From Haloferax denitrificans ATCC 35960 (GTDB lineage Archaea; Halobacteriota; Halobacteria; Halobacteriales; Haloferacaceae), in NCBI RefSeq assembly GCF_000337795.1, contig NZ_AOLP01000005.1, forward strand, positions 1 through 64,000: a DNA stretch of 64,000 nucleotides, in the 5' to 3' direction. Position 1 is the first letter of the stretch; each line of letters starts with the position of its first letter. Position numbers and translations under genes: made by a program. This document shows, piece after piece, positions 36,988-40,246 of this stretch. The notes below the pieces were generated by a model. That model worked only from the letters and a program-made list of their open reading frames with translations, was not told the DNA's origin and ran no database searches.

Positions 36988-37704
36988 ATGGTTTCGGGAG
37001 GTGACGCGGACACCGCCGTAACAGATGACACGTCCACGTTCCAACTCGGGTTGGACGACCTCAAACGACGAGGGAGCGCGCTCCTCGTCGTCGGGTCGGT
37101 TCCGACCGAGCTCTACTCGCGGGCGTCCAAGCAGATGCTCGGTGCTCCCGACGAGCCGCGGCGGCGTCTTTTGGTTCTCAACGACTCGACGCCGCTCGAC
37201 GACCGGCTCGACGTCGACATCCAACGCACCACGGAGTGGACGCGCGTTGTTCGGTACGGGTCGCTCGAACGGAGCGCGGCGGCATCGCCGTCACCGTCGA
37301 CCGCCGTGCCGAGTGCGGTCGACGCCTGCGAGCGCCGGGTCGGCGGCGGTCTCGGCCAGCTCGGCGCGGCACTCGCCAACGACGTGACCGAGTTCGACAC
37401 GCTCGCCGGCGGGCTCTCCCCGGCCGAACTCCGGGTCGCGTTCGACTGTCTCCCGTCGCTCCTCTCGCGGTACGACCGAGACCACGTGTTTCGGTTCCTC
37501 CACGTCATGACCACCCACATCCGCTCGCGAAACGGGATGGTCCACGTCTGGTCCCCCGGTGAGCGCGAAGGCGAGGTCAACCGACTGTTCGAGCCGCTTT
37601 TCGACGCCGTCGTCGAACTCGACGTCGAGGGTTCCGAGGCCCGTCAACGCTGGCATCTCCGGCAGAAGGACGTCTCGTCCGGCTGGTTCCCGTTGGAGTC
37701 GTGA
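36988..37704 (+). CDS. RecA/KaiC-like-fold protein without visible Walker A, CHAT locus
   Basis: This 238-residue protein (MVSGGDADTAVTDDTSTFQL) has an early strand ALLVVGSVPTELYSRASKQM where RecA/KaiC-type ATPases carry the P-loop, but no GxxxxGK[ST] is present. Later blocks (AFDCLPSLLSRYDRDHVFRF, HIRSRNGMVHVW) fit the rest of that fold. I recall related haloarchaeal proteins as DUF7504; this was not checked. It may be a scaffold or a pseudo-ATPase. It lies 50 bp upstream of the CHAT-type gene on the same strand. Confidence 0.75.
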   Translation: MVSGGDADTAVTDDTSTFQLGLDDLKRRGSALLVVGSVPTELYSRASKQMLGAPDEPRRRLLVLNDSTPLDDRLDVDIQRTTEWTRVVRYGSLERSAAASPSPSTAVPSAVDACERRVGGGLGQLGAALANDVTEFDTLAGGLSPAELRVAFDCLPSLLSRYDRDHVFRFLHVMTTHIRSRNGMVHVWSPGEREGEVNRLFEPLFDAVVELDVEGSEARQRWHLRQKDVSSGWFPLES

Positions 37705-37754
37705 ACTTCTCACGACCAGTACGTTTTTCACCTTAATCGTGTCACGTAGACACA

Positions 37755-39869
37755 ATGGAACCGACCGGGGAGGGCGAGCGGGCCGACACGTCTTCAACGC
37801 TGGAAGTCGGCTTTTCGCTCCCTTCAGACGGGGCGGGGTTAGTCGTTCGGGACAACGTCGAACGCCACCAGTTCGTGCTCCGAACGCCGTCACCGGTCGA
37901 CCCGGAACCGACAGATAGCAGTCGGTTCTCGCTTCCGACGGACGCCGCGGTTCGCATCGAGACCGGCCGCATCGGGCTGGCGGCGAACACGGTCGTCTGC
38001 GTCCGCGACGAGGCGGGGTCGATGCTCGCACAGGTCGACCAACAGGGGCGCGAGGAACTCGGGGCGGGGACCTACAGCATCGAACTCTTCGGCGCGGTCA
38101 AGACGTATCTCCGGGCCGACGGGCCGCTGACCGTCGACGCGCAACCGCTCGAAACAGTGCTCTCCTTCGAGGAGCCCCAGACGGTGTCCGTCGGCGCGCG
38201 GTCGTCCCACGAGAGTCCCGCGACGACGATTACGACGACCGACGACCCCCTCGACGTGATGGCGGCCGTCTCGGCGTTCAGCTCCGCGCTCAAGACCACG
38301 AGCGTCGAGCGGTCGTACCCGACGCTCCGGGGACACCCGCCGCTTCTCGAACTGGGCGACGAACTCGACGTCCCCGATGCTCTCGACGTCCCCGAGACCG
38401 GCGTCCGAATCGAACTCCCGCCGACGCTGAGCCACGTCTTCGTGGCGACGCCACTGGCGTACTACCTCGGCGCGCGGGTCGTCCCCGGCGACTCGCCCCG
38501 ACTCGTCGCGGAAGGCGGGTTCGTCCACGACTTCGACGGCCCCCACGGCTTCGAGGAGGCGGTCGAACGCGCGCTCAAGCGGACGTTCTTCCTCGACTGC
38601 GTCGTCCGAACGGAGGGTATCTACGACGTGCCGCTCCACGAGCGCCAGACCGTCGAGTCGCGGACGGATATCGACGTCGAGGGGTTGTACGACGCGTCGC
38701 TCGGCGAACGGCTCTCGGCGTACTTCGAGATACCGTACGAGGATATCGCCGACCTGCTCCCGGAGTGGAAGCTGACGACGCACGTCGCGCCGCGGGCCGA
38801 CAACATCGAGCTTCTCCCCTTCGTCACGAACGACCTCGCGGTCGTCCGGACGCCGTCGGGGACCGAAGTCCCCCACTCGGAGGTGCAGGCGGCGGTCGTC
38901 GACGACTTCCTCCGGGACGACGCCGACGCCGGCACCGTCAGGAGCGCGGGCACGACGACGCCGAGCGAGACGTACGTCAAGCCCAGTTCGACCGACTCGG
39001 TCGAGCAGGCGTGGATTAGCGACGGAACGCCCGTCGGCGCGAGCAAGACCACGCCCGCCGCCTACCGGAACCGCCTCCAGCGGGAGCCGACGCAGGGCGA
39101 CATCGGCATCACGGTCGTCTGTAACGACCCCGAGATGCTCGCCGAGACGGACATCGTCGACGAGGTGTACGGCTCGCGCGACGGGCTCTCGTTCGACGTC
39201 GACGCTCACTACGACCTCAGCAGGGCGGAGCTTCGGGCGACGCTCGCGGAGCCGACCGACTTCCTCCATTACATCGGCCACATCGACGACGACGGCTTCC
39301 AGTGTCGCGACGGCAAGGTCGACGCGGAGACGCTCGACACCGTCGGAACGGGGGCGTTCTTCCTCAACGCGTGTCAGTCGTACGACCAGGGGTTGGCGCT
39401 CGTCGAAGCCGGCGCAATCGGCGGCATCGTCACGTTCAGCGAGGTCATCAACAGTCAGGCGGTCGGCGTGGGACGCACGCTGGCCCGACTCCTCAACGGG
39501 GGGTTCCCGCTACAGGCGTCGCTTGAGGTGGTCCGAATCGACAGCGACGTGGCACACCAGTACGGCGTCGTCGGGGACGGGAGTCTCTCTGTGGTACAGT
39601 CTGAGAGCGGAGTCGCGGTCTACTGCGAAGTATTTGATAAATCGGGCGGCCAGTTCGAAGTGTCGTATCACGCATTCAATACTTCGAGGGCGGGAATCGG
39701 GTCGCTGATTAGGCCCGCCCTCACCGACAGTATGCCGTATTATCTCTCTTCTTCCGGCGTCTCGAATACAGATTTGACTGAGGACGAGCTCAGGGACTTC
39801 CTCTCGCTAGAACAAATTCCGGTTATCTACGACGATGCCGTCTACTGGGACCGCGAGTTCCTCTCGTGA
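37755..39869 (+). CDS. CHAT-domain (caspase-like) protein
   Basis: This 704-residue cytosolic protein has about 450 residues of N-terminal, largely beta-rich sequence without recognised domains. The C-terminal region carries the CHAT dyad: His in DFLHYIGHIDDDGF (H509) and Cys in GAFFLNACQSYDQG (C540), then GGIVTFSEVINSQAVGVGRT. CHAT proteins are clan CD peptidases related to caspases and separase. No TPR repeats are seen, so the N-terminal part is unlike the TPR-CHAT proteases of type III CRISPR systems. A 46-aa membrane-peptide gene ends at the very next base on the other strand. The substrate is unknown. Confidence 0.8.
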   Translation: MEPTGEGERADTSSTLEVGFSLPSDGAGLVVRDNVERHQFVLRTPSPVDPEPTDSSRFSLPTDAAVRIETGRIGLAANTVVCVRDEAGSMLAQVDQQGREELGAGTYSIELFGAVKTYLRADGPLTVDAQPLETVLSFEEPQTVSVGARSSHESPATTITTTDDPLDVMAAVSAFSSALKTTSVERSYPTLRGHPPLLELGDELDVPDALDVPETGVRIELPPTLSHVFVATPLAYYLGARVVPGDSPRLVAEGGFVHDFDGPHGFEEAVERALKRTFFLDCVVRTEGIYDVPLHERQTVESRTDIDVEGLYDASLGERLSAYFEIPYEDIADLLPEWKLTTHVAPRADNIELLPFVTNDLAVVRTPSGTEVPHSEVQAAVVDDFLRDDADAGTVRSAGTTTPSETYVKPSSTDSVEQAWISDGTPVGASKTTPAAYRNRLQREPTQGDIGITVVCNDPEMLAETDIVDEVYGSRDGLSFDVDAHYDLSRAELRATLAEPTDFLHYIGHIDDDGFQCRDGKVDAETLDTVGTGAFFLNACQSYDQGLALVEAGAIGGIVTFSEVINSQAVGVGRTLARLLNGGFPLQASLEVVRIDSDVAHQYGVVGDGSLSVVQSESGVAVYCEVFDKSGGQFEVSYHAFNTSRAGIGSLIRPALTDSMPYYLSSSGVSNTDLTEDELRDFLSLEQIPVIYDDAVYWDREFLS

Positions 39870-40010
39870 TTACGGCCCGTAGATGACGCTGGTGTTTCCG
39901 GCCGCCACGCTCCCGGCCTGTGAGAGCAGGAGCGTGAGCGTGAACAGGACGCCCATCATGCGGGGATTCTGACGCAGGTACGCGAGCATCTGGTTGCTGT
40001 CGTCGGACAT
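39870..40010 (-). CDS. 46-aa single-helix membrane peptide abutting the CHAT gene
   Basis: This frame encodes 46 residues, starting MSDDSNQMLAYLRQNPRM and ending NTSVIYGP. One hydrophobic helix spans about residues 19-38. The stop (TAA) is directly adjacent to the CHAT stop: the two genes meet at 39869/39870 with no spacer. A minus-strand TATA element at 40037-40047 is about 30 nt upstream, which supports a leaderless gene. Many haloarchaea have similar peptides; I recall a family called DUF7503, unchecked. Function unknown. Confidence 0.75.
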   Translation of the reverse strand: MSDDSNQMLAYLRQNPRMMGVLFTLTLLLSQAGSVAAGNTSVIYGP

Positions 40011-40036: not shown

Positions 40037-40047
40037 AAAATATAATT
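40037..40047 (-). promoter_or_regulatory. TATA box of the 46-aa membrane peptide gene
   Basis: On the minus strand the sequence reads AATTATATTTT, in an AT-rich patch. It is centred about 30 nt before the ATG at 40010, as expected for a leaderless transcript. Confidence 0.6.
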
Positions 40048-40246
40048 TTTCGTGTAAATCTGATATGAAATTAAATGAATTAAGTGACAGGGCCCCGCAA
40101 GTAATCGTCAGTCAGACGAACGGTACCCGTGGGAGTGCGAAACCGGCCTTGCAGATGCGAGAACGACCCGTCAGAGACGAGAACTATCCGCTACGACGAA
40201 CACGGAGAACAGAGAAAACGGTTGGCGTCCGAAACGTGTGGGTCGT

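Follow-up and report, generated by a model that had tools for sequence, protein, structure and literature searches.

Introduction

CHAT proteases that come with a dedicated partner are already known. In Craspase the TPR-CHAT protein Csx29 is joined by Csx30, and the haloarchaeal protein described here, a predicted CHAT protease, resembles Csx29 both in its fold and in its genetic pairing with a dedicated partner. Unlike Csx29, however, it shows no TPR repeats, its identified neighbours include no Cas7-11 or CRISPR gene, its partner is a 46-residue hydrophobic peptide, and it belongs to a pair that is near-universal in haloarchaea rather than to a sporadic defence locus. The closest solved CHAT domain is that of a SAVED-CHAT protease (PDB 8tl0), but only the CHAT domain (residues 445-615) aligns with it, and no SAVED sensor was seen when the full-length protein was compared. 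Separase, which shares the clan CD fold, is matched from a point before the catalytic domain, and with securin it offers a model of inhibition by a partner. Whereas securin is long and disordered, the haloarchaeal partner is a microprotein. A third gene often found at the haloarchaeal loci encodes a protein with the fold of KaiC and archaeal KaiC-like ATPases, from which it differs in having a single domain and in lacking the Walker A motif.

Caspase-like activity has a history in this genus. Reported from Haloferax volcanii in 2010 and characterised in 2012, it is high in cell extracts, inhibited by zVAD-fmk, directed at Asp (LEVD, VEID, IETD) and found in diverse archaea; no gene was assigned to it, and the authors urged that the protein be identified (PMC3615174).

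Here we examine a locus in Haloferax denitrificans ATCC 35960 for which the original prediction, made from the letters of the DNA, had proposed a small proteolytic switch of a kind not known to have been described. A search of open-access papers agrees with the second part: it found no paper on DUF7503 or DUF7504, the families of the two companion proteins, and none joining ‘CHAT domain’ and ‘haloarchaea’. What is new is not a CHAT protease with a partner but a near-core haloarchaeal pair with a Gly-Pro tail.

Results

Layout of the locus

The window analysed is a stretch of 64,000 nucleotides from contig NZ_AOLP01000005.1. On recheck, the coordinates and protein lengths first given for all three genes proved correct (Table 1). 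The coordinates likewise confirm the 50-bp spacer between the DUF7504 and CHAT genes and the zero-gap convergent peptide gene, whose stop directly abuts the CHAT stop on the opposite strand (39869/39870). The neighbouring genes are AspAT, Usp, DUF7504, HalX, TrmB and GuaB. A HalX gene had been placed beside the locus, and this holds in Haloferax but not as a general feature: outside Haloferax and Halobellus, HalX was seen beside the CHAT locus in just one weak case, so we dropped it as a module component and regard it as mere local context.

Table 1. Features of the locus, with positions in the window, and the dead CHAT paralogues, with positions in their own loci.
Feature	Position	Strand	Basis or character
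DUF7504 protein gene, 238 aa, pseudo-ATPase with KaiC/RecA fold	36988..37704	+	Pfam PF24336
CHAT-domain cysteine protease gene (predicted), 704 aa, H509/C540 dyad	37755..39869	+	Fold and dyad
DUF7503 microprotein gene, 46 aa, single hydrophobic segment, C-terminal Gly-Pro	39870..40010	-	Pfam PF24335
TATA-like A+T-rich box (AAAAATTATATTTT and flank), about 30-42 bp before the microprotein ATG	40037..40052	-	Comparison of upstream regions
Dead CHAT paralogue L145	2652-5090		His/Cys dyad lost, N-terminal half kept
Dead CHAT paralogue L146	3131-5335		His/Cys dyad lost, N-terminal half kept
Dead CHAT paralogue L147	3810-7172		His/Cys dyad lost, N-terminal half kept
Dead CHAT paralogue L148	2861-4909		His/Cys dyad lost, N-terminal half kept

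The 704-residue protein has a predicted CHAT fold with an invariant dyad

Profile searches of Pfam, NCBIfam and PADLOC returned no match for the CHAT protein; the Pfam CHAT profile (PF12770) reaches 10 of 44 relatives, weakly (best E 3.7e-4), and leaves this member unmatched. Most relatives are annotated as hypothetical, one as ‘CHAT domain-containing’ and one as ‘caspase family’, and comparing the sequences of this protein and the DUF7504 protein with those of solved structures was of no help in either case. An AlphaFold2 model built from 44 homologues (mean pLDDT 80.8) shows a CHAT/caspase fold over residues 445-615, as foreseen. The best match of this region is to the SAVED-CHAT protease 8tl0_B (Z 17.9, rmsd 2.4, 169 residues, 18% identity), Foldseek agrees on the fold (prob 1.00, E 6.8e-7), and wider stretches of the protein match gingipain (Z 17.4), separase (Z 16.8) and Craspase (Z 13.7). 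The proposed catalytic residues, H509 in HYIGH and C540 in LNACQS, follow the canonical core strands (501-507 and 532-538) in the model, and none of the 49 distinct homologues departs from either residue, which supports the dyad. The absence of TPR repeats was also read correctly: Pfam finds none, and in the model the N-terminal half starts with a beta-rich part that gives way to an alpha/beta one. A Foldseek search with that half of the full-length model yielded no convincing fold.

By its modelled fold, then, the protein groups with the CHAT peptidases of clan CD, and its most likely role is that of a caspase-fold endopeptidase active in the cytosol. Its counterpart in H. sulfurifontis is 98% identical. 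More distant relatives (E about 1e-70) occur at four loci (L133-L136) of a family that shares the phylum but lies outside the Halobacteria; in one of them, L135, R and D replace the H and C of the dyad.

The convergent gene encodes a selected microprotein with a fixed Gly-Pro end

The 46-residue peptide belongs to Pfam family DUF7503 (E 1.4e-21, 76.2 bits against a gathering cut-off of 27). Among 70 distinct family peptides, P16 and F23 are invariant and L12, G20, L22, Q31 and G33 nearly so; position 35 is only V, A, S or T and position 37 only A or G. Residues 38-44 are highly variable and are followed by a conserved terminal G45-P46. Column conservation shows the N-terminal tail to be as variable as the C-terminal one. 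The terminal Gly-Pro is conserved at the protein level, since all four glycine codons, and all four proline codons, are used to write it. The conserved body of the peptide looks like a signal sequence.

Within Haloferax, pN/pS of the gene is 0.28 overall, 0.09 across the core (residues 11-37) and 0.67 in the tail; the gene is real and under purifying selection. The peptide had been credited with a leaderless promoter of its own, and comparison of 70 distinct homologous upstream regions supports this: A+T content before the ATG peaks at 91% at -35 to -31 and stands at 36% at -20 to -16, which is the pattern expected when a TATA box serves a gene with little or no leader.

Three loci depart from the usual form in details. 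At L022 (3561-3704) and L027 (3550-3720) the DUF7503 peptides have no Gly-Pro end and finish ..TID, and the DUF7504 gene lies on the peptide side rather than upstream. At L019 (about 1376-1471) the DUF7503 gene is broken by a run of masked N, and its readable part ends GNAGP.

CHAT and DUF7503 form a strict, ancient module

In a survey of 195 haloarchaeal genomes, 173 encoded the CHAT protein and 163 encoded DUF7503. DUF7503 occurs without CHAT in none of the 195, and each genome that lacks CHAT also lacks DUF7503. A separate, phylum-wide sample yielded 59 DUF7503 genes from 44 genomes; 58 of them are arranged tail-to-tail with a CHAT gene, and 6 to 233 bp separate the two as measured between profile ends. 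Counted from the other side, a convergent peptide gene follows the CHAT gene at 48 of 50 loci, and L019 adds one more behind its masked bases. At most loci the two stop codons touch or overlap, with a median gap of 0 bp, and the pairing is kept where the gap exceeds 100 bp. The CHAT gene is often multi-copy in haloarchaea, single-copy in this Haloferax genome, and multi-copy relatives repeat the pair; a Halomarina plasmid apparently carries the whole three-gene set with its order kept.

We conclude that CHAT and DUF7503 constitute a strict, ancient module. The expectation that three genes would be conserved together thus holds for the pair, given the 58 of 59 tail-to-tail arrangements and the absence of any peptide-only genome, but not for DUF7504, which adjoins CHAT at only 32 of 50 loci.

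DUF7504 is a frequent, non-obligate partner

The upstream protein is a confident DUF7504 member (PF24336; E 3.1e-53, 181.3 bits, gathering cut-off 27), and its AlphaFold model (pLDDT 87.6) matches KaiC with Z 16.2 over 184 residues. A Walker A motif (GxxxxGK[ST]) is found in 0 of 65 members. Both halves of the original description, RecA/KaiC-like and P-loop-less, are therefore sound, and because the modelled protein has the KaiC/RecA fold while Walker A is missing from all 65 members, ‘pseudo-ATPase’ is a fair term.

Of the 195 genomes, 190 encode members of this large haloarchaeal family, some with at least 16 copies, and mere presence therefore says little. What can be judged is position. 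At the 32 of 50 distinct loci where it adjoins CHAT, the DUF7504 gene is upstream and co-directional at 25, divergent at 5 and on the peptide side at 2; it is absent from the other 18 type-1 loci, within the flanks examined. None was found beside the type-2 CHAT genes examined. We accordingly rejected DUF7504 as an obligate partner and regard it as a frequent, non-obligate one. Other DUF7504 paralogues of this Haloferax genome (L150 3442-4095, L151 3679-4344 and L152) have no CHAT gene beside them and adjoin UbiA and SerA/HAD-phosphatase genes.

A second CHAT clade has a different partner with the same end

The CHAT family tree contains a second clade (type 2) with an intact dyad, at whose loci we found neither DUF7504 nor a gene passing the DUF7503 cut-off. 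In one haloarchaeal family, f7, a convergent microgene nonetheless follows the CHAT stop at 12 of 12 loci. Its product has a variable N-terminal part and no membrane helix, and it ends [VI]S[ST]YxGP; varied synonymous codons show that this end, too, is conserved at the protein level. A TATA-like box lies upstream of the ATG in several f7 microgenes, and one or two basic residues often stand before VSTYGGP. A CHAT protein of a second clade with a different, non-membrane convergent microgene, again Gly-Pro-ended, is new here.

In the Haloferax family, second-clade CHAT genes have a diverged membrane peptide at 4 loci, with a Gly-Pro end in 3 of the 4, and at the type-1 locus L170 the hydrophobic segment is lost and the Gly-Pro end kept. 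As background, 1.3% of the open reading frames in these loci end in Gly-Pro. Partner type goes with CHAT phylogeny: mapped on the tree it changes 4 times, as compared with 28.8 times on average after shuffling. No Gly-Pro microgene was detected beside catalytically intact type-2 CHAT genes of several other families. Neither is there a conserved Gly-Pro microgene beside the four dead paralogues L145-L148 (Table 1); these form one clade of the CHAT tree, and any argument from them rests on a single loss event. At second-clade loci (L137-L144 and L149) a conserved regulator-like gene (..ASKATFSRTKTKLEDMGLIDTEKVPIDVGRPRLRL..), which we tentatively take to be TbsP, adjoins CHAT.

Discussion

Two genes make up the core of the system, one for a predicted CHAT protease and one for its own Gly-Pro-ended microprotein, and a KaiC-like pseudo-ATPase is often found with them. 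It is plausible, as first suggested, that the system acts as a proteolytic switch in which the peptide would be substrate or effector. We infer protease activity, tail binding, cleavage of the partner and a trigger. The microprotein would be the cognate target of the CHAT protease, which would read the partner's C-terminal Gly-Pro tail and, once activated, cut it; cleavage would change the state of a small membrane peptide, and the trigger may be carried by the N-terminal half of the CHAT protein, by the P-loop-less DUF7504 protein, or by both. Since the Gly-Pro tail is the only element common to nearly all partners, it is the likely recognition element, read either by the protease or by a shared downstream receptor.

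That CHAT recognises and cleaves the Gly-Pro microprotein is, in our judgement, the most likely reading, though we hold it tentatively. In its favour are the fold, the invariant dyad, the strict pairing, the microprotein's own promoter, a shared tail on different carriers and one clade of dead paralogues without a partner. Against it stands topology: the positive-inside rule, if valid here, puts the Gly-Pro end of DUF7503 outside, beyond a cytosolic CHAT protein. A cytosolic protease would then meet the tail only if the C-terminus faced inward or before the peptide was inserted. The signal-sequence-like body of DUF7503 and the partnerless intact type-2 CHAT genes also weigh against cleavage, as do the single loss behind the dead-paralogue case and the two DUF7503 peptides, at L022 and L027, without a GP end.

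The same topology is a real difficulty, in DUF7503, for a second reading, in which the microprotein is a membrane tether or a securin-like pseudo-substrate inhibitor. A hard-to-cut Gly-Pro would fill the active cleft and silence CHAT until released, the true substrates lying elsewhere. Strict 1:1 pairing, a separate leaderless-type promoter, the recurrence of one end on otherwise different carriers and the partnerless dead clade would all suit an inhibitor, and separase, with its own inhibitory partner, is among the closest folds; intact CHAT genes with no adjacent partner, however, speak against it. We consider this possible but rather unlikely.

Another reading is that of a haloarchaeal peptide-processing system in which CHAT or signal peptidase frees short, Gly-Pro-ended C-terminal peptides that act as signals or membrane effectors. 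We think this unlikely, but if true, it would amount to a caspase-fold signalling pathway of archaea, near-universal, in which one conserved tail is borne by interchangeable carriers. In its more specific version, which we find distinctly doubtful, the microprotein would be a precursor of a Gly-Pro-ended peptide signal, made of its C-terminal 7-9 residues and either exported or released; signal peptidase would cut DUF7503 after an A-x-A-like site, and CHAT would cut the non-membrane type after Lys-Arg. The residues allowed at positions 35 and 37 fit the -3/-1 rule and are followed by a variable stretch and the fixed GP; the basic residues before VSTYGGP and the weaker constraint on the tail in Haloferax (pN/pS 0.67, core 0.09) point the same way. 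Yet small residues at 35 and 37 may instead reflect helix packing, the N-terminal tail of DUF7503 is equally variable, and the one Haloferax density signal to have been characterised, the disk-forming quorum-sensing signal, is proteinase K-resistant and described as a small molecule (PMC12240190). A link between the locus and that signal is rejected on the same ground.

It is very improbable that the two genes share only a transcription end, with antisense regulation, a common terminator and products that make no contact, because although the stops abut or overlap in most loci, the pairing survives gaps above 100 bp and apparently a move to a plasmid, and the Gly-Pro end is conserved at the protein level, even in the second clade's differently built partner. 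Anti-phage defence is likewise not favoured: none of the PADLOC defence models matches any of the three proteins at E up to 10, there is no match in phage records, and the distribution is near-core.

The CHAT protein is also a candidate source of the caspase-like activity of Haloferax. Activity and protein come from the same genus and are of caspase type, and this CHAT gene is single-copy in this Haloferax genome; the Asp specificity of the activity and its spread in diverse archaea are as yet unexplained by CHAT.

Taken at the strength of the preferred reading, in which the microprotein is cleaved, the protease-peptide pair may be a proteolytic switch. A predicted caspase-fold protease with an intact dyad is present in about nine of every ten haloarchaeal genomes sampled and comes with a built-in candidate partner, and if the tail rule holds, it would represent a new way of matching a caspase-fold protease to its partner.
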